This document shows, in pieces, positions 7,093-29,433 of a stretch of 64,000 nt of DNA. The DNA comes from Halobacillus amylolyticus (GTDB lineage: Bacteria > Bacillota > Bacilli > Bacillales > Halobacillaceae). Below the pieces are notes generated by a model. That model was not told where the DNA came from, made no database searches, and was given only the letters and a program-made list of their open reading frames with translations. The stretch is taken from the NCBI RefSeq assembly GCF_022921115.1, contig NZ_CP095075.1, forward strand, positions 2,988,001-3,052,000, given 5' to 3'. Made by a program: the position numbers and the translations under genes. Every line of letters begins with the position of its first letter. Within the stretch, counting starts at the first letter, position 1.

Positions 7093-8526
7093 CTACAAAA
7101 TTGGCATGCCATGGCGCTGAAATGCAGCAACTTCTAAATCAGACATTCCTTGAACTTCAGCAAATGCCGAAATCTTGTCCGAAACTTTAGGTGCATACTG
7201 TGCTGGTGGAGCGGCGTGTCCCATTTGTCTTCTGCGACCGGCATTCTTACGTGCGAATGGCCCCCAAATCGCGAAAGTTAAGCCAGGGCTTTGAATATTT
7301 ACGAAAAATGTATTTCCTTTTGTGGAGAAGGTAGGGCCAGCCAGTTCAGAGCCGTTGATTTTATTTTCCGAAAAGACGTAAGTTTCGCCCTCAGGTGTAA
7401 CCCCAATGATGCGATCAACCCCGCCGCCATCTTCAGAAATCCATAAATCTCCCCATGGAGTGATACAGATATTATCGGGCATCTCTAAATCATTAGCTGA
7501 CGTTGATTCATAAAAAAGTTCTAATGTATTGGTCGCTGGTATATAGCGGTAAACGCGTCCTAAATTTTTTTCACCTGCTGAAGTATCGTCAAACCAGAAC
7601 ACACCACTTTCAAAATAAGCACCTTCTAAGCGGCTGAAAGAAATACATCCTTTACGACCTGCCTCAAGGGTAGGTTTTTCCGGATCAACATCCTTCCAAA
7701 CGATTCCGAGTTTTTGTCCGGTATAAAAATCGCTTGTACTAGCTGCGCTCATTTCTTCCATAGCTGCGGCTTGCAATGTACCCCCTTTTTGAAGGGCGCC
7801 AATCTTTTGACTGCGATCATTTGGAAGAAACCGATAAAGATAGCTTGGACCGCCATCTTCTGTCAGGTAAACAATCCCTGTAACAGGATCTATGGCCGTT
7901 GCTTCGTGTGAAAAAGCACCCATCTCCCTGATTGGAGTTTTTGAGGTCTTATTTTCTGGATCATGAGGGTCGACTTCAAAAACATAGCCATGACCTTCCT
8001 CAAGCGTCTCTTCACAGGTTAACCAAGTTCCCCAGGGTGTCGTCCCTCCAGCACAATTTCGAATCGTCCCTGAAGACGAGACGTACTCACTGCTTACTTT
8101 GCGATTGGCTCCTACAACTAAAGCTGTAGTTCCACCAGTGTTATCTTTGTGATATGGATTTTTACCAATGACAGGATACTTTGGATTGCCGCTCAATTCA
8201 TGATTACGTACTAAAACAGTTGAATTGTGCGGCCCATCGAATGCTGCCATACCATCAAAGTTCTCCGGTATAGGACGGCCATCTGAAAGTTTACCGCCTT
8301 CCTCTGAGATAATGCGATATTGGAATCCCCGTGGGAGATCGAGGATTCCACCAGGGTCTTTTACTAAAGGCCCATAGCCACTTAACGATTTGGACTTCTT
8401 TGGTGAGGCTAGTGCACTATTTCCACCGAGGGAAAGAATTCCTGATGTACCTAGTGCCATGGCTGCCGTGCTCATTCCGCTTACTTTTAGAAAATCACGC
8501 CTGTTCATATTAGATTTGTCGCTCAT
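7093..8526 (-). CDS. PhoX-like (DUF839) Tat-exported protein
   Basis: A 477-residue protein with a twin-arginine leader (NRRDFLKVSG, then a hydrophobic run to about residue 40). It is expected to be folded before export. The body matches the PhoX/DUF839 beta-propeller family: DLPRGFQYRIIS near the start of the domain, GGTTPWGTWLTCEE, FSHEATAIDP, EDGGPSYLYRF and DNICITPWGDLW. PhoX members are calcium/iron-dependent alkaline phosphatases; many DUF839 proteins are unassigned. GAGGCATC precedes the ATG at 8526. Stands alone. Confidence 0.88.
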   Translation of the reverse strand: MSDKSNMNRRDFLKVSGMSTAAMALGTSGILSLGGNSALASPKKSKSLSGYGPLVKDPGGILDLPRGFQYRIISEEGGKLSDGRPIPENFDGMAAFDGPHNSTVLVRNHELSGNPKYPVIGKNPYHKDNTGGTTALVVGANRKVSSEYVSSSGTIRNCAGGTTPWGTWLTCEETLEEGHGYVFEVDPHDPENKTSKTPIREMGAFSHEATAIDPVTGIVYLTEDGGPSYLYRFLPNDRSQKIGALQKGGTLQAAAMEEMSAASTSDFYTGQKLGIVWKDVDPEKPTLEAGRKGCISFSRLEGAYFESGVFWFDDTSAGEKNLGRVYRYIPATNTLELFYESTSANDLEMPDNICITPWGDLWISEDGGGVDRIIGVTPEGETYVFSENKINGSELAGPTFSTKGNTFFVNIQSPGLTFAIWGPFARKNAGRRRQMGHAAPPAQYAPKVSDKISAFAEVQGMSDLEVAAFQRHGMPIL

Positions 8527-10296: not shown

Positions 10297-10710
10297 TTTG
10301 GAATATCGGTACATCTTCGTTTCCTAGTGCTATTCAACTTTAACGTATTCTAACTATATAGATGGAGGAAATTACCCATTTCTTTAATCCGATGGTTTAG
10401 CTGCCAGTAATAATATTGGTTACAGTATTATATCTGATGTGTATACTTACGGTACACCCTGAGGAAACAGGTAAAAAGACTATAGGACCAAGGGTAAAAT
10501 CTTCATTCCGGGTTGTTCCGCAAACGGTTCATATAATGGGTTGATTTCTTGCAAAAGTTATGGAAAATAAGGGCAGGATTGTTGAAGACTCAGTTTCGGG
10601 AATAAAGAATGAAAAGCTCAATTTCTGCTAGGTTCCCTATCAACAATGTTGTTCCATAATTAGGAATGGTAGTATAATTGAACCACCCCAATATGTAAAG
10701 GAGTATCGCT

Positions 10711-17461: not shown

Positions 17462-17581
17462 TCAAGAGTAGTCACGATCTTGAAATCGCTTAGAATTACT
17501 ACGAGAAGACGGGATACCAAGCAAGACACGTAGAACCCCTATAAGAATAAAGGTGATCATTATTCCTAAAGCAATTCCCAT
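17462..17581 (-). CDS. 39-residue membrane protein ending RDYS (copy 1)
   Basis: Starts ATG at 17581 with GGGAGG 10 bases upstream. The product is MGIALGIMITFILIGVLRVL, then LGIPSSRSNSKRFQDRDYS. It is nearly the same length and plan as the minus-strand frame at 20840 (LIGVVRVLLGI, ending NDRDYS). Two diverged copies with the same length support real coding. One helix and a basic tail; function unknown. Confidence 0.6.
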   Translation of the reverse strand: MGIALGIMITFILIGVLRVLLGIPSSRSNSKRFQDRDYS

Positions 17582-17752
17582 AAAATTATGACCTCCCACT
17601 TATGCCTTTTAGTGTACTATCTTGAAGTTTTTTGTTCACAAAATTTTCTTTAAGTTAATAACAATTATTTCAAATATCCATAACTTTCACAAGGAGTTAC
17701 TCCATTATATGGTCCTATACATAAAGAATGAGCACAATTCATTATTTCAGAA

Positions 17753-17816
17753 TGGCGCCCCTTATACAGAAGACTTGATTTCAAGTTATCTTCCACCGTG
17801 GCTCCCTATAAGGGAA
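17753..17816 (+). repeat. Dispersed GCGCCCC / GAAGACTTGATTTCAAG repeat, two units
   Basis: A unit reading GGCGCCCCTTATACAGAAGA then CTTGATTTCAAGTTATC is followed by a shorter unit with GCTCCCTATAAGGGAAG. It lies outside the Tn3-like element. Confidence 0.65.
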
Positions 17817-17838: not shown

Positions 17839-18613
17839 TTATTTGTGAAATTCAAAAAAAGACCCGACATCATTCTTAACTGCTTTTTGGAAAACTTCCC
17901 AAGCAATGATAAGATCTTGAAAGGCCAGACCTACACAACCAAATATCGTCGTTTGGTTGGAATCAGCCCTTCCACATCTTTGACTACCTAGTACCTCTCC
18001 TAATTCATAGACATTAAAAATCGACTCCTTAAGTTTCTTATCTTGAAGTACCCCCATTCTGTGGCCTAGTTCAACATCATCACAAACAATGACTGATTGT
18101 CCTAAAACATTTGGACTGACTTCAAACTTTCCTGGTTGGTCAGCACCGAGAGTAGTAATGTGTGTGCCTTCTTTTATCATCTCCGGATAAATAAAGGGAA
18201 CTTTTGACCAGGTAGCCGTAATAATTATATCAGCATCCATCAAAGCCTCTTCTAATCTTTCACATATAATAAAAGAGGTTTTCAATTCCTTACTCATTTC
18301 ATCAACAAATTTGATTGAATTCTGACTGTTTGTATCAAATACGTAGACTCTTGATATTGAACGAAAGTAAGATAAGGATTTCAATTGTGTTCTTCCTTGT
18401 ACTCCACTACCTACAATTGCAACGTTCTTCGCTTCTTTTCTTGATAAAGTATGAGTGCCAAGAGCGCCAGCTAAACCTGTTCGAACTGCTGTCAAATAAG
18501 AAGAATCCATAATAGCTAACAATTCTCCTGTTTCTATATCATGTAGTTGGATAATTCCTTTTATGGCCTTAGAATCGTCTGGAAACTTAGCATGAGTTTT
18601 AACAGTGTAAGCT
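17839..18613 (-). pseudogene. C-terminal part of a split ornithine cyclodeaminase-family gene
   Basis: The NAD-binding part of the OCD/mu-crystallin family: GLAGALGTHTLSRKEAKNVA, the Rossmann motif IVGSGVQGR, then TATWSKVPF and GADQPGKFEV. The frame is cut at 18613, where a Tn3-type inverted repeat begins; the matching N-terminus is at 21926-22121. Excising the insertion and one AAGCT copy gives 966 bases, a 321-residue frame, normal for the family. Members act on ornithine, related amino or imino acids, or make siderophore precursors; the substrate is unknown here. Confidence 0.9.
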
Positions 18614-18665
18614 GGGGTCAAGTCAGGAAAATGCGGATTTACAACGTTAAGATTTAAAAAGGGAA

Positions 18666-18709
18666 AAGAACCTAAATCCTCTGTGTATTAACTGAGAATT
18701 TAGGTTCTT
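18666..18709 (-). terminator. Terminator-like hairpin at the left end of the Tn3-like element
   Basis: Twelve-base arms, AAGAACCTAAAT and ATTTAGGTTCTT. On the minus strand it is followed by TTCCCTTTTT. The same hairpin type recurs at 19892-19931. Confidence 0.6.
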
Positions 18710-18720
18710 AATCTTCAACA

Positions 18721-18823
18721 ATCGCGCCCCTTTTCATGAATACTTGATTTCGAGATATTATTAATAACGATCTTCCGATTTTGCCCCCTTTACCAGAAGA
18801 CTTGGATTCGAGATAATTAAAAG
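18721..18823 (+). repeat. Dispersed repeat, two tandem units
   Basis: Unit one reads GCGCCCCTTTTCATGAATAC then TTGATTTCGAGATATT. Unit two reads TGCCCCCTTTACCAGAAGAC then TTGGATTCGAGATAATT. Confidence 0.7.
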
Positions 18824-18924
18824 ACAATAAATTATCTGTTTTACCTTCCACTAAAATACGTTTCAAAATGTGTATGTTAAAATAGGAAAATAATCCACTA
18901 TAAGTATAGAAAGGCGTGTATTCG

Positions 18925-19134
18925 ATGGAATTAATAATCCTAGGAGGAATCATAGGTGCCATTTCAATTAGTGTAATTAAATTCGCAATTAAAGGAAAAC
19001 CTTCGGATTCCAAAAGACGAGAGTACACTCCCACAAGTGATGTATATAGTGGAAAGAATAGAGATTATAGCAGTCATGCACCTGTAGAAACTCATAGAAA
19101 AGCTCCTTATGAAGAAGTGGACAAAACAGAATAA
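18925..19134 (+). CDS. Small membrane protein, passenger of the Tn3-like element
   Basis: ATG at 18925 has AAAGG 10 bases upstream; an in-frame GTG at 18916 is too close. Of 69 residues, the helix MELIILGGIIGAISISVIKF is followed by a polar tail with KPSDSKRREYTPTSDVYSG and KNRDYSSHAPVETHRK. It is the only plus-strand gene in the element. The RDYS word recalls the tails of the 39-residue proteins nearby. No family recognised. Confidence 0.5.
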   Translation: MELIILGGIIGAISISVIKFAIKGKPSDSKRREYTPTSDVYSGKNRDYSSHAPVETHRKAPYEEVDKTE

Positions 19135-19259
19135 ACTAAGAATTGATCATTGAAACATTAAAAATGGTGCCACCTTTTCCATTGTAACTCAACTCCTGTT
19201 CATCTTTTCTTCTATAATTATAATTGAAACTGTAATATAATATCCCGCAGAAATTATAT

Positions 19260-19838
19260 TTACCTCTTACTTCGTCGCGCTATAATGAAATACACGCCAA
19301 CCAATAAAACGACCGTAACAGCCAAATAGATATATACAGAATGATTATTTGTATTTGTTAAATCAACAGAAACTTCCTCTTTCGGTGCCTCTCCTTCACC
19401 TAGAGCATGAATATCCTCATCTGCTTCCGACAATAGTGCTGTTCTGGAACAGAGGCTGACATGAAGCCCGCCATCCCTTTCATTGGCATAGACGATATAA
19501 TCCTTATTTAAACTAAATTCATATCCGCAGCTTGCTGAACTTCTTTCCGTATGTACGACAACCTCTGATTTATCCATTCCCTTCCATGTCTCTTCCACTT
19601 CTAAAACAACTGCAATTGGATCAGTAGATGATTGAATAAGATTATTTTTGTTCTTATCCATTATCTTCACCACTTTTCCAGAGAAAACCGCCATACTCTC
19701 CTCAAGTTCTTCTTCTGGTGTACCGGGTAACACGCATGAACAAGCATAACTGTTAGTTGGTAAAAAAGTTAGAATAAAGCTCGATGTTATCATAAACAAA
19801 CCAGCATACCTGAAAATTTTCTTGTTTACTTTGGACAA
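19260..19838 (-). CDS. Secreted, membrane-anchored TIMP/NTR-like protein
   Basis: TTG at 19838 has GGGAGGG 7 bases upstream. A signal peptide (IFRYAGLFMITSSFILTFLP) is cut before ACSCVLPGTPEEE, the Cys-x-Cys start typical of netrin/TIMP-like domains. Further Cys residues are in SASCGYEF and VSLCSRT. An acidic spacer, then a C-terminal helix (VYIYLAVTVVLLVGVYFII) and ARRSKR anchor it outside the membrane. The family is common in Bacillus with no proven role. Passenger of the Tn3-like element. Confidence 0.7.
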   Translation of the reverse strand: MSKVNKKIFRYAGLFMITSSFILTFLPTNSYACSCVLPGTPEEELEESMAVFSGKVVKIMDKNKNNLIQSSTDPIAVVLEVEETWKGMDKSEVVVHTERSSASCGYEFSLNKDYIVYANERDGGLHVSLCSRTALLSEADEDIHALGEGEAPKEEVSVDLTNTNNHSVYIYLAVTVVLLVGVYFIIARRSKR

Positions 19839-19884
19839 AATCAATCCCTCCCCATACTAATTTGACGATATCTCACTTAAGAAG

Positions 19885-19936
19885 TTACAAAAAGCCTAAT
19901 TTCTCCGTATTAGAATTGAGAAATTAGGCTTCTTTC
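19885..19936 (-). terminator. Intrinsic terminator inside the Tn3-like element
   Basis: Fourteen-base arms (AAGCCTAATTTCTC / GAGAAATTAGGCTT), followed on the minus strand by TTTTTG. It is related in sequence to the hairpin at 18666. Placed to end the gene at 20189. Confidence 0.8.
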
Positions 19937-19982
19937 ATTACTGCATTAATTAGCCCGATTCAGAAGGACTCACTATTCCGTT

Positions 19983-20028
19983 AGCGCGCCCCATTAATTG
20001 AATACTTGGATTCAAGATAATTTAAAGG
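19983..20028 (+). repeat. Dispersed repeat unit
   Basis: Reads AGCGCGCCCCATTAATTGAA then TACTTGGATTCAAGATAATT. Confidence 0.65.
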
Positions 20029-20188
20029 AAAACCCATATAGATAAGCAAAACATAGTGAAGTGATCTTGTTTGTTCCAATATGCAGATAATAAATTCATT
20101 TACTTGCCACATAGGTAAGCCACATTCCAATTATAGAATGCCTTTTTGCAATTTGTTATCTCATTAAAAAAATTCTGGAATGGGTGTC

Positions 20189-20416
20189 CTAGAAGCCTGA
20201 TCCACCGCCAAATGTATTTCTATTTGCTTCCGCGTATGCCCGACTTTTAGCCTCTGCTTGGTTTAGGGAATCTGGTTTTCTTCTGTCTAACCGATAATCT
20301 CTGTTGTTCTTTTTGCTTTTGAAGAATATTTTTTTGAAAATAATTCCAATTAAACCAGGTAAAAACAACACAAAGAGAATTCCAAATAGTGTTAAGACTG
20401 CGCTTAGTATAAGCAA
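20189..20416 (-). CDS. Small membrane protein with GGGSGF tail
   Basis: TTG at 20416 has GGAGGG 5 bases upstream. Of 75 residues, a hydrophobic half (LILSAVLTLFGILFVLFLPG then LIGIIFKKIFF) is followed by a basic, polar half with KPDSLNQAEAKSRAYAEA, ending NTFGGGSGF. It shares its layout and ending with the gene at 17186, outside the element. Function unknown. Confidence 0.55.
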   Translation of the reverse strand: MLILSAVLTLFGILFVLFLPGLIGIIFKKIFFKSKKNNRDYRLDRRKPDSLNQAEAKSRAYAEANRNTFGGGSGF

Positions 20417-20506
20417 TCACTCCCTCCGTTTGGATTAGTAAGAAGTTGAAACCACCTTCATATTAACACTGGACCTTAAAAGTAAAACGGATGCGTTATT
20501 CGATAC

Positions 20507-20766
20507 ACGCGCCCCCCTACAAGGGAAGATAATGGAGTAGAGCCAATTGCCTTATTTAGATTGTATTAATTTTAACACAAATTGGAGTCTTACTTTAAAA
20601 ATCCTTATTCAAGAATATGCCCCTTTTCTGAAAGAAAGAGCGCAAGTCTTATTCAAGATTTGCTCCCTTAAACAGAAGACTTGATTTCAAGATAATCTAA
20701 AAAGACCATGATACAGACCTTCCACTATTGCCCCTTTATGCAGAAAGCCCAGTTTAAAGATAAATG
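20507..20766 (+). repeat. Cluster of dispersed repeat units
   Basis: Units or fragments at 20507-20537 (GCGCCCCCCTACAAGGGAAG), 20617-20700 (TGCCCCTTTTCTGAAAG, then AACAGAAGACTTGATTTCAA) and 20725-20766 (TTGCCCCTTTATGCAGAAAG). They vary in length and completeness. Confidence 0.65.
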
Positions 20767-20839
20767 AAACAGTGTGTTAGTTCGTATAAAGCTGTTTTGG
20801 TTAGGATATATTAATTCGATGAGTGTCAGAATCAGACAC

Positions 20840-20959
20840 TTATGAGTAGTCTCGATCATTGTAAAGATCGGATCTCCTACGTGAGGATGAAATTCCGAGT
20901 AGAACACGAACTACTCCAATGAGAACAAAAATAATAACTAACCCTAATGCAGCTCCAAT
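20840..20959 (-). CDS. 39-residue membrane protein ending RDYS (copy 2), ATT start
   Basis: Reads IGAALGLVIIFVLIGVVRVL, then LGISSSRRRSDLYNDRDYS. It aligns end to end, without gaps, with copy 1 at 17462. An AAAGGTGG site lies 7 bases upstream, exactly where a start is needed, but the codon is ATT and an in-frame TAA comes just before it. Either ATT is used as a rare start or the ATG has been lost. Confidence 0.5.
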   Translation of the reverse strand: MGAALGLVIIFVLIGVVRVLLGISSSRRRSDLYNDRDYS

Positions 20960-21110
20960 TTAAATACCACCTTTTATTGATGTTTCTACCCTTGTATTTC
21001 TCATCAGTATCAATTCAACATTACGTCGTTAGATTGAAGAATTGAATTTACATACTCTAAGCCGAAAGAAAGAGCTAAGCATTACATGCTGTCTAAACTT
21101 GATTACTTAC

Positions 21111-21596
21111 TCATTTAAAAGATTCCGCAATTTGAATTAGTTCTTCTTTGGAAATTTCCGCTTCTTTACTTGTACTAGCCGTAGATAAATTGTAAACTAC
21201 ACCTTCATCCTTCCAAACTAACCGCTTAACTTTTGTTTTTTTATCATTCACTTCACTTTCAGCATAGTCACCATCAATGGCACCTACTTTCACTTCTTCC
21301 GTCTCCATGTCCAGATTAATGGACTCCCCGTTAAAAGTCATCAACTCTACAGAATTATTTTCACCAATAAAGTTAAAGTTAAATACTTTCTCCTCGTCCA
21401 TAGTTGGAGTAGGTGAAAAAGAGGCATCTTCAACTTCAAAAGGAAATTCTGTTGGGAGCATGGGCTGATAAGACTTTTCCTCCAATTGTGTACGAAGATT
21501 TTCACCATCGTAGGATATTTGTCCGCTGGCATTACCATTTGTACACCCGCTTAAAATAAAAAAAGCTGCTATAATGGACAACAATAACACTCTCAT
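21111..21596 (-). CDS. Putative lipoprotein, passenger of the Tn3-like element
   Basis: A 161-residue protein with a lipoprotein signal (LLSIIAAFFILSGCTNG; the lipobox Cys is at about residue 18) and an AAGGAGG site before ATG. The mature part is mostly beta-like and acidic: PMLPTEFPFEVEDASFSP, then VKVGAIDGDYAESEV and WKDEGVVYNLST. It resembles small Bacillus lipoproteins that follow sigma-factor or anti-sigma genes, but no family is certain. It would sit on the outer face of the membrane. Confidence 0.6.
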   Translation of the reverse strand: MRVLLLSIIAAFFILSGCTNGNASGQISYDGENLRTQLEEKSYQPMLPTEFPFEVEDASFSPTPTMDEEKVFNFNFIGENNSVELMTFNGESINLDMETEEVKVGAIDGDYAESEVNDKKTKVKRLVWKDEGVVYNLSTASTSKEAEISKEELIQIAESFK

Positions 21597-21925
21597 TTCT
21601 GTTCCTCCTTAAAAAATTCCAATAATACATGTACGCATCATTACACCAAAAAGTTTCAAGCTAATCAGTAAGTAAATTTGAATTCTAAAAAACATAATAG
21701 TGCTTTATAAAATTCACATTTATCTCGAATTCAAGTCTTCAAGATAATGGCCGATTGTTGAAAGAGAAAGATGAAACACTTATCTAATAATTTTATAATC
21801 TTATCAGTAGGGTTTACTCTATTGATAATCTTTTGCATGACGATTATTACAGTGTTTTGACTGTCTCATATACATGTACCAAAATGGCTTAACGTTGTAA
21901 ATCCGCATTTTCCTGACTTGACCCC

Positions 21926-22121
21926 AAGCTGGAATTGATTCTAACAACCCTGGGAACAGAACCATTGAACTAGTATTCTTTCTTGGAAGGTTTGATTGTG
22001 CACGTTGCCCCTTAATTTTAGTAGCATGTGAATATTTTATAAACCCTTCCTTAAGATCATTAATATGGTGTTTTGGGATGATTAACTGTCTAATGTCAAG
22101 ATCACTTAAAAGTAAAGTCAT
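21926..22121 (-). pseudogene. N-terminal part of the split ornithine cyclodeaminase-family gene
   Basis: ATG at 22121 with a GAGGAGAAG site. It reads MTLLLSDLDIRQLIIPKHHI and on to SMVLFPGLLESIPA, then runs into the Tn3-type inverted repeat. It joins in frame to 18608 and below. It lies 29 bases after the DinB-like gene on the same strand, so the two were probably one operon. Confidence 0.88.
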
Positions 22122-22934: not shown

Positions 22935-23543
22935 ATGGAAAGTAGACGAATGGGGTACTTAAGGGTAAGTAGCAAAGACCAAAATGAAGAACGACAAATG
23001 GCGGCTATGAAAGAACATGGAATTAACGAACGGGATATTTTCATCGATAAAGTTAGTGGCAAAGATTTTAAACGCGAAAACTATCAACTCCTCAAACGTG
23101 TTCTTCGTCCAGGTGATATTTTATACATTCATGCGCTTGACCGTTTCGGAAGAAACAAAAACGAAATTGTCGAAGAGTGGAATGATATCACAAAAAATAT
23201 TCAGGCAGATATAGTTGTCTTGGACATGCCCTTGTTAGACACCACCCAATACAAAGACAGCATGGGGACCTTTATTGCTGACCTCGTCTTACAAATTCTA
23301 TCTTGGATGGCGCAAGAAGAAAGAGATCGCATTCGAAAACGGCAACGGGAAGGTATTGATGCCGCATTAAAACAAGGGAAAGCCCTTGGAAGACCGAAAG
23401 CTAATATAACAGAAGTCTTCCGAGAAACCTATGTGGAATGGAAAGAAGGAAAAATCACGGCCACTCGGGCTATGCAGAAAGCCCAGGTTAAGAAAACGAC
23501 CTTTTATAAGCTTGTGAAACAGATGGAGGAGAATCCGACATAA
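22935..23543 (+). CDS. Serine recombinase (transposon resolvase)
   Basis: A 202-residue resolvase. The catalytic Ser is in GYLRVSSKDQN; the Arg-rich LDRFGRNKNE and the long E helix with QEERDRIRKRQREGIDAA follow. The C-terminal HTH ends in KKTTFYKLVKQ. Similar to the BinL/BinR resolvases of Tn552-like elements. It resolves transposition cointegrates at a res site, probably in the 150 bases before the gene. AAAGG lies 14 bases before ATG. Confidence 0.88.
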   Translation: MESRRMGYLRVSSKDQNEERQMAAMKEHGINERDIFIDKVSGKDFKRENYQLLKRVLRPGDILYIHALDRFGRNKNEIVEEWNDITKNIQADIVVLDMPLLDTTQYKDSMGTFIADLVLQILSWMAQEERDRIRKRQREGIDAALKQGKALGRPKANITEVFRETYVEWKEGKITATRAMQKAQVKKTTFYKLVKQMEENPT

Positions 23544-23585
23544 TCCTACCTATTTATACCTGAAGTATAAGAAAGGGGAAAAAAC

Positions 23586-25048
23586 ATGTCGCCTCATAAT
23601 AATTCCGTCCTGACCTCTTACACTGAAGAACAAAGAGCCAAAGCCATGGAAAGGTTCCGTCTTATTCGCCCTTACTTAGAAGGCGAAACGTCTTTATCGA
23701 CTATTGCTTTAGACACTTCTGTTTCATTACGTACTTTGCAAAGGTGGGCCCAATATTATCGCAAAGGGGGATTGCAAGCACTGGTGACCAAGGAACGCTT
23801 CGATCGAGGCAGCCGAAAATATCACCTGAAATCGTTAAAGTGATTGAAGGGCTTGCTTTAAAAAAAGCACCTCCCAGTATGGCTTCCATCCATCGAAAAG
23901 TTGAAAGGATTGCGATGGAGCATGGATGGACGGTTCCGAGCTATGGAACTGTCTACGATATTATCGAATCCCTTCCTTCTTCGTTAAAAACATTAGGGAA
24001 TGAAGGATCAGTTATATACAAGGAAAACTTTGATTTAATTCATCGACGAGAAGCCCAACAGCCCAATGAGATATGGCAAGCCGATCATACCTTATTGGAT
24101 ATTTGGATTTGGAATGAAAAAGAAAAACCAGCTCGCCCTTGGCTAACCATTATTATGGATGACTATAGCCGTGCCGTAGCTGGTTACTTTTTAAGTTTTG
24201 ATGCTCCTTCGGCTATTCAAACGTCTCTCGCATTACATCAAGCCATTTGGTCAAAGGAAGACAGCCGATGGAGGGTTTGTGGTATTCCGAGTATTTTCTA
24301 TACGGATCATGGCAGTGATTTTACTTCGGACCATCTGGAACAGGTTGGTGCTGATCTACGTATGCAACTTATTTTCTCCACTGTTGGGGTCCCTAGAGGA
24401 CGAGGGAAGATTGAGCGTTTTTTCCAAACCATCAACCAGTTATTTTTACAGGAGCAACCCGGTTACATCTCCCATTCACGACCTTCACTATCTCCATCTA
24501 TGACTTTACCCGAACTTGATCGTCAGTTACGAGAATTTCTGATTGAAACGTATCATTTTCGTGTTCATGGAACAACTGGTTTCCCACCTGTGACACGCTG
24601 GGAATCCGAAGGTTTCCTTCCTCAACTCCCAAATTCTCTCGAGGATTTGGATTTACTATTATTGAATGTTGCTACATCTCGCCGTATCCATCCGGATGGC
24701 ATACGATTTCAAGGTTTTCGCTATGAATCAACGACATTAGCTCCTTATATCGGAGAAGATGTGACCATTCGATATAACCCTCGTGATTTAGCTGAAATAA
24801 GGGTCTTTTTTCATCGCCAGTTTTTATGCCGGGCAATTTGTCCGGAACTAGCTGGGTATGAAGTGGATATCAAAGATATTATAGCTGCACGAAGTCATCG
24901 GAAAAGAAATGCCACCCGTCAAATCAAGACACGTAATGCGGTTTTTGAAGAGTTGGTACAAGATTCCCATAAAAGGTCCAAAACAACAGAAGCTGACGAA
25001 ACTCCGAAATCATCTAACACAAAATTAAAGAGGTATAAGTATGAGTGA
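23586..25048 (+). CDS. Tn552-like DDE transposase (TnsB/TniA family), frameshifted
   Basis: The HTH part (STIALDTSVSLRTLQRWAQY) is in one frame and the integrase core is in another. The core shows WQADHTLLDIWI, FYTDHGSDFTS and GRGKIERFFQTINQ, the three acidic catalytic positions. A Mu-type C-terminal beta domain (RRIHPDGIRFQGFRYES) follows. The frame breaks in the AAAA at 23816-23819; one more A restores SRKISPEIVKVIEG and about 487 residues (Tn552 p480 has 480). AGAAAGGGG lies before ATG. It overlaps the ATPase gene by 8 bases. Confidence 0.87.
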
Positions 25049-25847
25049 TCAGTCAACCTTTTTAGAAACGAAGGAATATCGCCGTTTTGTGGAATTTTGT
25101 GAAGCTTGCCGGAAGTACCAATATATTGGTGTATGTTATGGGGAGGCTGGTGTCGGCAAGACAATGGCTGCAAAGCACCTCACCCGGTGGGACCTATTAT
25201 CGCCATGGCTTGATCTTCCAAGAATAGAAGATGATCAACAAGTCCCATTAGAAGTCCTCGATGAACATACTCTGTATTATACAGCTCCTGTTGTTAAACC
25301 GGCTCAGATTGGAAGGGATTTATCTGTCTTGAATCTTCGCTTAGCCATGCTGCATGAAAAAGCGCATTATCAAAAAGATGGCATACAGAGACGAATCCCA
25401 GATTTTTATGGCAGTACCGAACTTGTACTCGTTGACGAAGCTGATCGTCTTAAATTAGTAGGGTTGGAATTAATCCGAGACATGTACGATCAACATCCAA
25501 TGGGGGTCGTACTTATTGGTATGCCTGGTTTTGAGCGCCAACTAATGCGCTATCCGCAGTTATATTCCCGTATTGGCTTTGCGCATGAATATAGAACGTT
25601 AAAAAGAGATGAAATGACCTTCATATTAAAAAATAAATGGAAGGAACTCAGTCTGAACATTAACCTTGAAGATTTTACGGATTACGAGGCCTTTACGGCT
25701 GTCGTTCGTATGACTGGTGGGAATTTTCGGCTTATTCAGCGCCTCTTCACGCAAGTTGAACGAGTCATGGCCATCAATCAGGTCGAGACTATATCGAAAG
25801 AAGTGGTTGATGCGGCCAGGGAAAGTCTTGTAATTGGTCATAAATAG
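25041..25847 (+). CDS. Transposition ATPase (Tn552 p271 / TniB-like)
   Basis: A 268-residue AAA+ protein. Walker A is YGEAGVGKTMAAKH and Walker B is LVLVDEADRLKL; the sensor stretch is VVLIGMPGFERQL. It activates the transposase and selects targets, like MuB or TniB. Its start lies inside the end of the transposase gene. The length is close to Tn552 p271. Confidence 0.9.
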   Translation: MSDQSTFLETKEYRRFVEFCEACRKYQYIGVCYGEAGVGKTMAAKHLTRWDLLSPWLDLPRIEDDQQVPLEVLDEHTLYYTAPVVKPAQIGRDLSVLNLRLAMLHEKAHYQKDGIQRRIPDFYGSTELVLVDEADRLKLVGLELIRDMYDQHPMGVVLIGMPGFERQLMRYPQLYSRIGFAHEYRTLKRDEMTFILKNKWKELSLNINLEDFTDYEAFTAVVRMTGGNFRLIQRLFTQVERVMAINQVETISKEVVDAARESLVIGHK

Positions 25848-26631: not shown

Positions 26632-29433
26632 ATGAGAAAAGTGCTGGGAAAAAGTGTTCTTATCATGTTGGCGTTTGTTATGGTTTATTCATCATCAGGT
26701 AGCATTGTTGCTAGTGAATTTAGTAAAGATACTGCCTCTAAATCACTTACTGAATCACCGATTCCAGAGGGTCATATAAGAGTTCATTACCAAAGGACAG
26801 ATAGTGATTATAGTGGTTGGGGGTTGCATCTTTGGAATCAGGATGGGGACAACCCCGCTATTGATTTTGTTGTGGACTGGTCAGAGCCTATTATGTTCGA
26901 TCAGAAATCTGATTGGGGAGTCTATAAAGATATCAAAGTAAGTAATATTAAAAACGGCTTAAACTTTATTGTTCATAAGGGTGATACAAAAGATGTTGTA
27001 AAGGATCGTTCTTTTCCGACATCAGGGGAAAGAGAATTTTGGCTTGTTCAAGGTCAAGAAAAAGTCTATTTGGAAGAACCTGAAACAAGTAGCGAACTGA
27101 CATATGTTGAAATTACTAGCAAAAGTCAAATGACAGGTTACTTAAATGGAAGTGGTGAAGAGCTATCACGTGATGAGTTACAAATCGTTGATCAACGTGG
27201 CAATGAAATCGGAATAAAGAGCGTCAAGGTAAGTCATTCACAATTCACGCTGACTACTACTAAAAACCTTGATCTGTTGAAAAGTTATACCGTTTCTCTT
27301 AACGGTACAGAAAAACATGCGAGGATTTCTTGGGAATTAATGGACAAAGAATTTGCCTACAAGGGCAACGATCTTGGGGCTACTCTACATGATAATGGAG
27401 AGGCAACATTAAAGTTCTGGTCACCTCCTGCTACGAACGTTTCCGTTATTCTCTATGATAAAGACAACCAATATAAGGTGATTAAAGAAAGTACACCGAT
27501 GTCTAAAGGTGAAAATGGTGTATGGAAAGTCCAACTAGATCAAGCTAATACCGGGGTTAGTGACTTGAGTGGCTATTACTATCAATACCAAATACATGTA
27601 TATGGACAAACGAACATAGGCCTTGACCCTTATGCAAAATCAATGGCCGCATGGAGCAACGAAGATGGAGATAGCGTTGGTAAAGCTGCTATTATTGACC
27701 CATCGTCGATTGGACCACAATTAGATTATGCAGATATAGATGGGTTTGAAAACCGAGAAGATGCTATTATTTGGGAGGCTCATGTCAGGGACTTCACCTC
27801 TGATCCGAGCATTGATTCAGATCTAAAGTCACAATTTGGAACATTTAATGCGTTTGCTGAGAAATTAGATTATATTAAAGAGCTAGGAGTAACACATATT
27901 CAACTACTTCCAGTGATGAAGTACTACTTCGGAAATGAGCTTAACAGTGATGAAAGAGAAATGGAATATTCTTCACAAGGCAATAATTACAACTGGGGAT
28001 ATGATCCACACAGCTATTTTTCTCCAACGGGGATGTACTCTGAACAACCAAAAGATCCAAAAGCACGGATAGCAGAACTAAAGAACCTCATAAAAGAAAT
28101 TCATAAAAGAGATATGGGAGTCATTCTTGATGTAGTTTACAACCACACTGCGAAAGTAAGTATTTTGGAAGATCTCGTTCCAAACTATTACCACTTCATG
28201 GGTGAAGAGGGCAATCCTAAAGTGGGCTATGGTGGTGGAAAAGTAGGGACTACGCATGCCATGTCCAGAAAATTAATGGTTGATTCCATTAAATATCTGG
28301 TAGAAGAATTTAAAGTGGATGGCTTCAGATTCGATTTGATGGGAGATTTGGATGCCGAAAGTGTACAAATAGCCTATAACGAAGCTAAAAAATTAAATCC
28401 GAATATCCTCATGATCGGAGAAGGCTGGAGAACTTTTGTTGGAGATGGTGGTCCTGAAGATGAGGTCATGCCAGCTGATCAGGATTGGATGAATCATACA
28501 AATGGCGTAAGTGTGTTCTCTGATGAAATAAGAAATGAACTAAAGTCAGGATTTGGAATCGCAGGTGAACCGAGATTTATAACAGGTGGGGCGCGTGACA
28601 TAAGAACTATATTTAACAACATAAAGGCCCAACCAGGAAACATCAAGGAAGATGATCCGGGTGACGTCGTTCAGTATATAGCCGCACACGATAATCTGAC
28701 CCTTCATGACGTTATCGCTTATTCGATTAAAAAGGACCCAGCAGAACACGAAGAAGAAATCCAAAAAAGAATCAGGTTAGGAAATTCCATGATTTTAACC
28801 AGTCAGGGAATTGCATTTCTGCATGCCGGGCAAGAATACGGACGAACCAAGCAATGGAAAGGCGAGGAAAAGCCTAAGAACTCAGCAATCTATATGGTAG
28901 ACCAAAATGGTGAACCTTTTGATCACCCTTACTTTATAGACAATTCCTATGATTCTTCCGATCGTATCAATATGTTTGATTGGAGCAAAGTGACAGAGAA
29001 AGGTGTTCATAAGGAGACTATGGAATATACAAAAGGTTTGATTGAATTACGGCGCTCAACAAACGCTTTTCGACTAGGAACGATGGACGAAGTTAATTCA
29101 AATATTTCGATGATCGATGTCCCCGAAATCGATGAACGAGACATGGTCATCGCTTATAAAGCAGAATCTACCGATGACACGGGGAATTACTTTGTGTTCG
29201 TTAACGCCGATAATCAAGAGCGTAAACTTACATTACATGAATACAATTTAGCAGCAGGTAAAGTTATAGTAGATGACGATGAGGCAGGAAAGGAAAAAGT
29301 AAGCGATCGTTCAGGCTTCAAATTGAATGCCAATGAGATTACATTGGAGCCTTTAACAACGGTTGTAGTGAAGTGTGATTCTCCCGGCAATGGGCATGAC
29401 CCTTGTGAAAAACCAAAGAGAGGAAAGAAATAA
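26632..29433 (+). CDS. pulA: Secreted type I pullulanase (GH13_14)
   Basis: A 933-residue enzyme that cuts alpha-1,6 links in pullulan and branched dextrins outside the cell. The signal peptide covers about residues 1-29 (VLIMLAFVMVYSSSGS). A CBM41-like start (GHIRVHYQRTDSDYSGWGLH) and a CBM48-like region before the barrel follow. The type I hallmark YNWGYDP is at 453-459. Catalytic residues are Asp568 (DGFRFD), Glu597 (IGEGW) and Asp687 (AAHDN). The C-terminus is basic (KKPKRGKK type). GGGAGG precedes ATG. Probably induced by maltodextrin through the operator at 26572. Confidence 0.93.
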   Translation: MRKVLGKSVLIMLAFVMVYSSSGSIVASEFSKDTASKSLTESPIPEGHIRVHYQRTDSDYSGWGLHLWNQDGDNPAIDFVVDWSEPIMFDQKSDWGVYKDIKVSNIKNGLNFIVHKGDTKDVVKDRSFPTSGEREFWLVQGQEKVYLEEPETSSELTYVEITSKSQMTGYLNGSGEELSRDELQIVDQRGNEIGIKSVKVSHSQFTLTTTKNLDLLKSYTVSLNGTEKHARISWELMDKEFAYKGNDLGATLHDNGEATLKFWSPPATNVSVILYDKDNQYKVIKESTPMSKGENGVWKVQLDQANTGVSDLSGYYYQYQIHVYGQTNIGLDPYAKSMAAWSNEDGDSVGKAAIIDPSSIGPQLDYADIDGFENREDAIIWEAHVRDFTSDPSIDSDLKSQFGTFNAFAEKLDYIKELGVTHIQLLPVMKYYFGNELNSDEREMEYSSQGNNYNWGYDPHSYFSPTGMYSEQPKDPKARIAELKNLIKEIHKRDMGVILDVVYNHTAKVSILEDLVPNYYHFMGEEGNPKVGYGGGKVGTTHAMSRKLMVDSIKYLVEEFKVDGFRFDLMGDLDAESVQIAYNEAKKLNPNILMIGEGWRTFVGDGGPEDEVMPADQDWMNHTNGVSVFSDEIRNELKSGFGIAGEPRFITGGARDIRTIFNNIKAQPGNIKEDDPGDVVQYIAAHDNLTLHDVIAYSIKKDPAEHEEEIQKRIRLGNSMILTSQGIAFLHAGQEYGRTKQWKGEEKPKNSAIYMVDQNGEPFDHPYFIDNSYDSSDRINMFDWSKVTEKGVHKETMEYTKGLIELRRSTNAFRLGTMDEVNSNISMIDVPEIDERDMVIAYKAESTDDTGNYFVFVNADNQERKLTLHEYNLAAGKVIVDDDEAGKEKVSDRSGFKLNANEITLEPLTTVVVKCDSPGNGHDPCEKPKRGKK

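Follow-up and report, generated by a model that had tools for sequence, protein, structure and literature searches.

How did a block of small membrane and surface-protein genes, enclosed by perfect inverted repeats, come to split an OCD-family gene of Halobacillus amylolyticus? The element in question lies within a 64,000-nucleotide window, the whole stretch of DNA analysed here and the one to which plain coordinates refer; the window belongs to a 4.15-Mb contig (C1), and the same genome (G000) has a second contig (C2) of 145 kb, called a plasmid. The explanation that best fits the data, with a probability of roughly 0.82, is a non-autonomous Tn3-family element that carries cassettes of an integron-like system of the Bacillales.

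The two terminal repeats, at 18614-18651 on the plus strand and 21888-21925 on the minus strand, are identical at 38/38 positions, and the 3312-bp element that they bound is flanked on both sides by AAGCT, at 18609-18613 and 21926-21930; the repeat search reported 39 bp because AAGCT starts with A and ends with T. Two shuffled windows, searched on one strand each, gave no repeat match with fewer than 15/38 mismatches. When the element and one AAGCT are deleted in silico, the two parts of the interrupted gene (3' part 17839-18613, 5' part 21931-22121, both on the minus strand) form a single 321-codon frame, of which residues 4-310 match positions 5-312 of the 314 in Pfam profile PF02423 at 183.0 bits, the C-terminal piece alone scoring 173.4 bits. 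Neither the open reading frames nor the profile matches between the repeats include a transposase or a resolvase. The element has the terminal repeats of ~38 bp, the 5-bp duplication and the lack of an internal transposase that mark a Tn3-family mobile insertion cassette (MIC). An earlier reading made from the sequence alone, without database searches, had described the repeats, the duplication, the length, the restored OCD frame and the absence of transposase and resolvase genes, and all of these were borne out. The empty site that it proposed to look for in strains with an intact OCD gene was not found, the closest OCD orthologue among 60 relatives being only 37% identical.

The ends of the element are of a kind that is accompanied by a transposase elsewhere in the same genome. 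On C2, a similar end at 7175-7212 (4 mismatches) adjoins a 985-amino-acid transposase with a complete Tn3 DDE domain (505.8 bits), beside which is a frame that reads like a resolvase; further C2 ends are located at 21797-21834 (2 mismatches) and 28487-28524 (5 mismatches). The C2 transposase (TnpA) and the Tn3 TnpA encoded next to the van genes of pTW9 share 82.1% identity across 987 aligned columns, and the pTW9 end adjoining the latter differs from the element repeat at 4/38 positions; we take the pTW9-type transposon and its ends to be Tn1546-like. Because C2 carries a Tn3 transposase beside an end with 4 mismatches, it is plausible that a related transposase, the C2 TnpA for example, could move the element in trans. 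The sequence-only reading had likewise proposed a Tn3-family element that a related transposase could move, and the search that it suggested for an autonomous transposon with similar ends leads to these C2 and pTW9 sequences. Ends with at most 3 mismatches are present in 4/44 genomes of the family, the window genome included. An exact 33-mer of the repeat had no match in the genome contig collection, and the 35 plasmid records matched by the whole element share only short pieces with it (ends or repeats), none covering most of the query. Single degraded ends were also noted on C1 at 120925, 135632 and 3439969, two of them with a subterminal hairpin.

The cargo is modular. Element bases 101-1407 match genome G007 at 98.6%, with two genes in the same order, and bases 1377-1855 match at 92% elsewhere in the same chromosome and at 91% in G007; these matches end within a repeat of which the element has further copies, and which we regard as a cassette site. 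The interrupted OCD gene has a cassette-type site of its own (17755-17789, minus strand), with position 17789 lying 50 bp past its stop. This integron-like cassette make-up of the cargo, together with the site of the OCD gene, is what the sequence-only reading missed. The same gene order without the inverted repeats, which that reading had named as telling against it if shared by all relatives, was found in relatives to the extent of the two genes in G007, where the block does end without the element's repeats.

Sites of this type are numerous in the genus and are organized in arrays. With up to 3 mismatches allowed, the window-type site pattern has 14 matches in the window genome and 23, 13, 7, and 3 in four congeners, largely in co-oriented clusters, and the reversed pattern has 0 matches in all five genomes. 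In a window-genome cluster at 887-934 kb the sites are often one or two genes apart, with some site-free stretches of many kb that hold insertion sequence or intron genes; on our reading of the sequence, its genes include those for acetyltransferases, DinB, Nudix, lipoproteins, and small membrane proteins. In genome G292, an array at 331-350 kb has sites mostly on one strand (15 versus 4 within 40 kb), and G020, of another genus, has 13 one-strand sites spaced 0.3-0.9 kb apart over 6 kb. One cassette of the G020 array contains an orthologue (1625332-1625532), at 82% DNA identity, of the first small membrane gene of the element (18916-19134). These arrays are built from one-gene cassettes that have a site on their 3' side; in the window genome the gaps are longer.

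Homology between such stretches tends to stop at the sites. Eight stretches from four genomes (409 kb) were compared, with matches of at least 200 bp and at least 80% identity retained and group II intron copies removed by length, which left 34 matches with 136 ends. Thirty of the 136 ends are no more than 40 bp from a site, compared to 1.9 on average and at most 8 in 1000 rotated site sets, and in 9/34 matches both partners have a site at the match end (rotated controls: mean 0.013, maximum 1). Behind these nine double-site matches are 10 site pairs, which were aligned half by half. The gene side is conserved in 8/10 (53-60 identical of 57-60), whereas the far side has only 5-37 identical of 60; the remaining 2/10 are reversed, with 58/59 and 58/60 on the far side and 37 and 45 on the gene side. 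Random site pairs (n=300) average 0.67 and 0.38 identical of 60 on the two sides. In 10/10 pairs a 6-bp core of GGGCGC type marks, give or take a few bases, the point where homology changes over. As the pairs were picked for ends near sites, the enrichment rests on the rotated-control test, and the position of the switch on the half alignment.

The sites are dif-like dyads with arms near TTCAACAATC / GATTGTTGAA, and at recombinase loci in other genera the consensus is approximately CTTATTCAACAATC - GGGCGC/GGGGGC/GGGTGC/GGGCAG - GATTGTTGAATAAG. In two sets from loci picked for having sites (96 sites from 10 loci and 41 from 6, representing two recombinase groups), arm pairing at a 6-bp spacer is 0.52 and 0.53, compared to 0.20-0.35 at other spacers of 2-10 bp. 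A dyad with a 6-bp spacer is also the hallmark of dif-module sites, and is blurred in the window genus.

An intact 280-amino-acid tyrosine recombinase is encoded within the G292 array (337109-337951). Its residues R138, K162, H229, R232, H255, and Y264, presumably the catalytic positions, are invariant in 22/22 aligned sequences. It scores 220.4 against the XerA-type profile NF040815 (cut-off 220), and its predicted structure (pLDDT 84, pTM 0.61) is closest to XerA, with IntI4 matching too. A 29-protein tree places the 16 array recombinases in a single clade (support 100/99), with long branches flagged for one array sequence and among the proteins outside the clade; the array recombinases share 26-31% identity with seven host proteins whose XerC/XerD-like names derive from partial scans of two of them. 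In a sample of 397 genomes of the order (135 genera, one genome per species), a recombinase relative at E 1e-50 or better occurs in 96 genomes and 48 genera, some only 36-43% identical, and the window-type site occurs in 49 genomes of 17 genera, with the reversed pattern at 0 among the matches listed. Relatives are also carried by 9/72,556 plasmid records (E 1e-60 or better) and 5/50,697 phage records (E 1e-40 or better, 34-37% identical).

Sites crowd around these recombinases. Defining a site as GGG plus at least 13/20 arm positions, we found 446 in the best 80 of the 561 loci found around the recombinase (1.31 Mb), compared to 14 with reversed arms and 16 in codon-shuffled sequence; the loci include those of Pontibacillus marinus, Neobacillus vireti, Fictibacillus, Sporosarcina, and Peribacillus frigoritolerans. 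In 284 kb of other sequence, window included, the count is 6; the window accounts for 4 of them, two of which lie in the element. At least three sites are present at 63/80 loci (40/52 in a first group, 23/28 in a second), and their orientation differs with the group: the 52 loci of the first group (68-100% identity) have 279 sites on the recombinase strand and 13 opposite, whereas the 28 of the second have 21 and 133, or 12 and 133 without locus L243. The second-group loci are 61-69% identical except for L243 (78%), where 9 sites share the strand of the recombinase. At the loci with the distant recombinases (L222-L249 except L243) the array thus lies mostly on the strand opposite the recombinase gene, and the site arms are TTCAACTAAC/GTTAGTTGAA. 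In classical integrons the array lies on the strand opposite the integrase gene.

The link between cassettes and transposon is found at the left end of the element, where the order is repeat, hairpin, site; at the right end a two-armed site points the opposite way. The subterminal hairpin (18666-18709) is matched by one at the equivalent position in several further ends of the type (C2 21797, C1 135632, L250, L251, L078), and it is followed by cassette site 1 (18713-18758, minus strand, core GCGCCCC at ~18724-18730, 13/20 arm positions), which joins the transposon end module to the last cassette. The second transposon-type end on C2 also has a cassette: a lipoprotein-like gene lies between sites at 21061 and 21718, beyond which come a hairpin and the repeat at 21797-21834. 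On Bacillus velezensis pDMB05-2 (L251 7002-7130), beside spoVA genes, and in genome G043, the order is again repeat, hairpin, and a site-like stretch, CTTCATTAAA GCGCCT GATTGTTGAAG, which could not be counted in the arm-based scan because its spacer lacks GGG in the site sense. A Priestia end of the type has the hairpin and no clear site.

The sequences themselves establish the ends, the duplication, the sites, the breakpoints, the arrays and the association with the recombinase; from these we infer the catalysis, the trans-mobilization and the following order of events. A XerA/XerD-like tyrosine recombinase of ~280 amino acids would act on dif-like sites 3' of single genes, the sites acted on having two inverted arms of ~10-14 bp around the 6-bp GGGCGC-type spacer, and would exchange cassettes at that spacer. 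Since the transposon end carries a hairpin and a site, cassettes could be added beside it, and this end module may be what lets Tn1546-like transposons take up cassettes. The transposon, here an MIC with Tn1546-like ends that a related transposase such as that of C2 would move in trans, would then carry the cassettes to new places, and in this instance would have hit an OCD gene that is itself trailed by such a site. Two-armed sites, one of which is near a broken recombinase of the window genome, are candidates, and only candidates, for an attI or Pc.

Several observations weigh against this account. The two recombinase copies of the window genome are broken or truncated, and no PF00589 match was found within the G006 and G008 array stretches analysed. 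Fewer than three sites are present at 17/80 recombinase loci, and at more distant recombinases the strict window-type 21-mer is absent from 14/24 scanned neighbourhoods and present in 10/24, because the arms differ between groups. Most homologous blocks (25/34) lack a site at their end in one or both partners. The dyad is blurred in the window genus (64 sites; 0.43 at 6 bp and 0.39 at 9 bp), whose sites have an extra conserved stretch, TTATCTTGAAATCAAGTCTTC, that the proposed mechanism does not account for. With arm partners swapped within a set, pairing out of 14 is 6.57 versus 6.96 and 6.32 versus 7.05, and 5.40 versus 5.30 in the window genus; as swapping partners barely lowers the pairing, the dyad belongs to the consensus and shows no compensatory change. 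The Tn3-type end in G007 (2 mismatches) sits 9.7 kb from the matching block, and among the ends found the C2 transposon end has no partner bearing a matching duplication.

Do these observations favour a simpler explanation? We considered and rejected a plain MIC with random cargo, repeats that are only miniature inverted-repeat transposable elements (MITEs) or terminators, RecA exchange, and a canonical integron. An ordinary Tn3-family MIC with a trapped chromosomal segment, its repeats being terminators or MITE-like and unrelated to mobility, would need no second system, and such repeats are indeed common in the genus, many of them beside hairpins. It is nonetheless decidedly unlikely, as the sites are co-oriented and often one gene apart, block ends fall at them far above rotated controls with the homology switching at the core, and they crowd in fixed orientation around a single recombinase clade. 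RecA-mediated exchange between dispersed repeats without any site-specific recombinase, which we rate slightly lower again, would be consistent with the 20-45 bp of similarity among sites, with a window genome that has no intact recombinase copy, and with the majority of homologous blocks that end away from sites. However, it does not predict a switch at the 6-bp core in 10/10 pairs, on either side, and it leaves the association with a tyrosine recombinase at 63/80 loci unexplained.

The remaining alternatives concern the identity of the recombinase. In the plasmid dif modules of Acinetobacter, sites with a 6-bp spacer are recombined by host XerC/XerD and stand in inverted orientation, and the host XerC/XerD might similarly recombine the Bacillales sites in place of the array-borne enzyme. 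This shares most of our preferred explanation, and their odds overlap; the dyad with its 6-bp spacer, the Xer-like nature of the recombinase, and the persistence of arrays where the array recombinase is broken all fit it. The arrays nevertheless have a separate recombinase clade, with arms that differ with the clade (TTCAACAATC versus TTCAACTAAC), and a role for the host enzymes instead is improbable, if not negligible. A canonical integron (IntI and attC) in the Bacillales is scarcely credible. Co-oriented arrays of single-gene cassettes with a tyrosine recombinase beside them and group II introns within them do recall one, but the score against the integron integrase profile TIGR02249 is 103.1 bits, far under the cut-off of 265, and in the recombinase group to which the window genome's copies belong, gene and array run in the same direction. 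Integron attC sites have RYYYAAC/GTTRRRY cores with the crossover in GTT; the arms of the Bacillales sites contain GTTGAAT-like letters by chance, and the homology switch is elsewhere, at the GGGCGC-type core. We retain the Tn3-family element with cassettes of an integron-like Bacillales system as the preferred explanation.

The remaining features of the element are consistent with a series of cassettes. Inward of site 1 is cassette site 2 (18781-18816, minus strand, core GCCCCC), and then the first small membrane protein gene (18916-19134, plus strand; 72 amino acids from a GTG, with an ATG at 18925), which is opposite to the other cassette genes, as it is in the G020 array. A TIMP-like protein gene (19260-19844, minus strand; PF00965, 41.2 bits, cut-off 23.1), whose product appears from its sequence to have a C-terminal membrane anchor, is followed by a hairpin (19889-19934) of a kind also present in plasmids of related genera, and by cassette site 3 (19975-20020, minus strand, core GCGCCCC at ~19986-19992), which joins two cassettes. 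The next cassette is a small membrane protein gene of 75 amino acids (20189-20416, minus strand), the one with DNA copies elsewhere in the same chromosome and in G007. Beyond it are a degenerate site (20604-20637, minus strand, 13/20 arm positions) and cassette site 4 (20650-20695, minus strand, core GCTCCC at ~20662-20667), the 21-mer part of which is the exact consensus. A third small membrane protein gene (~20840-21003, minus strand), which resembles 17462-17599, is broken by an in-frame TAA, and a DUF4367 lipoprotein gene (21111-21596, minus strand; PF14285, 38.0 bits, cut-off 22.1) precedes the inverted two-armed site (21720-21768, plus strand) that forms the right boundary of the cassette block. 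The cargo listed by the sequence-only reading is therefore right as to the TIMP-like protein, the lipoprotein, and two tiny membrane proteins, and wrong as to the third. An Rfam scan of 10 kb around the element gave no match. Elsewhere in the window, more cassette-type sites are present at 10557-10590 and 26273 (both plus strand), and the segment at 22935-25847, next to the OCD and DinB genes, encodes a serine recombinase (PF00239), a DDE transposase-like frame and an ATPase-like frame, and is probably another transposon.

Other features of the arrays were also noted. Group II introns recur in them (L081 5235-7811; G006 C1:1715655-1718344 and 2822887-2825560), with one reverse transcriptase above the TIGR04416 cut-off and Rfam group II matches; across four array loci, Rfam gave six matches (five group II introns and one SAM riboswitch) and no family matching the cassette site. 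The two G006 introns start at the cassette core, just as some group II introns start at attC. The window genome has two copies, at C1 898-907 kb and 1802-1810 kb, of an array stretch that comprises several cassette genes and a defective recombinase. A 2375-amino-acid frame (C1:323058-330185) heads the G292 array and adjoins two-armed sites, and in G006 a site at C1 3807547 is 2.3 kb from a partial tyrosine recombinase match at 3809892.

Many Gram-negative bacteria build up and exchange stocks of accessory genes by means of integrons, and our data point to a widespread Bacillales counterpart that detectors based on IntI and attC would miss. We think it somewhat better than an even bet that the Bacillales have a gene-cassette system of their own, independent of integrons and of Acinetobacter dif modules, in which a XerA-like recombinase family and dif-like sites build accessory-gene arrays across dozens of genera, and that Tn1546-like transposons, perhaps including the one for heat-resistant spores, carry such a site at their end and gather cargo through it, like class 1 integrons on Tn3 elements in Gram-negatives. 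No earlier description of the cassette system was found in the literature searched, which left out preprints and most subscription journals. The system offers a testable recombinase-site pair and a possible source of variable cargo in Tn1546-like transposons, to which the data also link it; these are carriers of traits such as heat-resistant spores (PMC5133452).

How, then, does the element compare with known systems? Its ends (3-4 mismatches of 38) and the C2 TnpA (82% identical) are those of Tn1546-like Tn3 transposons, and its order of repeat, hairpin, and site is paralleled, with a site-like stretch as the third part, by the spoVA-linked transposon end on pDMB05-2; PMC5133452 describes a Tn1546-like transposon with spoVA2mob as carrying the heat-resistant spore trait. 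Unlike those transposons, it lacks an internal transposase and resolvase, and its cargo consists of small surface-protein cassettes. In having transposon-family inverted repeats around transposase-free cargo it resembles MICs (such as MIC231, cited in PMC6542083) and Tn3-derived inverted-repeat miniature elements (TIMEs; PMC4133298), but it differs in that genes and recombination sites in an array make up its cargo, which could therefore change cassette by cassette. With Acinetobacter dif (pdif) modules it shares dyad sites that bound gene modules (PMC6449649 and PMC13141974); the abstract of PMC13141974 states that exchange there needs like spacers, and describes the modules as unique to Acinetobacter. 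The Bacillales arrays depart from these in their host order, in their array-borne recombinase and in sites that are mostly co-oriented rather than inverted, with some inverted two-armed sites. Like integrons, they are single-gene arrays, each gene with a recombination site, with a tyrosine recombinase nearby and a Tn3-type carrier; unlike integrons, they have a recombinase far under the integrase cut-off and dif-like sites with a GGGCGC-type spacer, and they occur in the Bacillales, a part of the Firmicutes in all of which IntegronFinder 2.0 (PMC9024848) reports one complete integron, that of Limnochorda pilosa.

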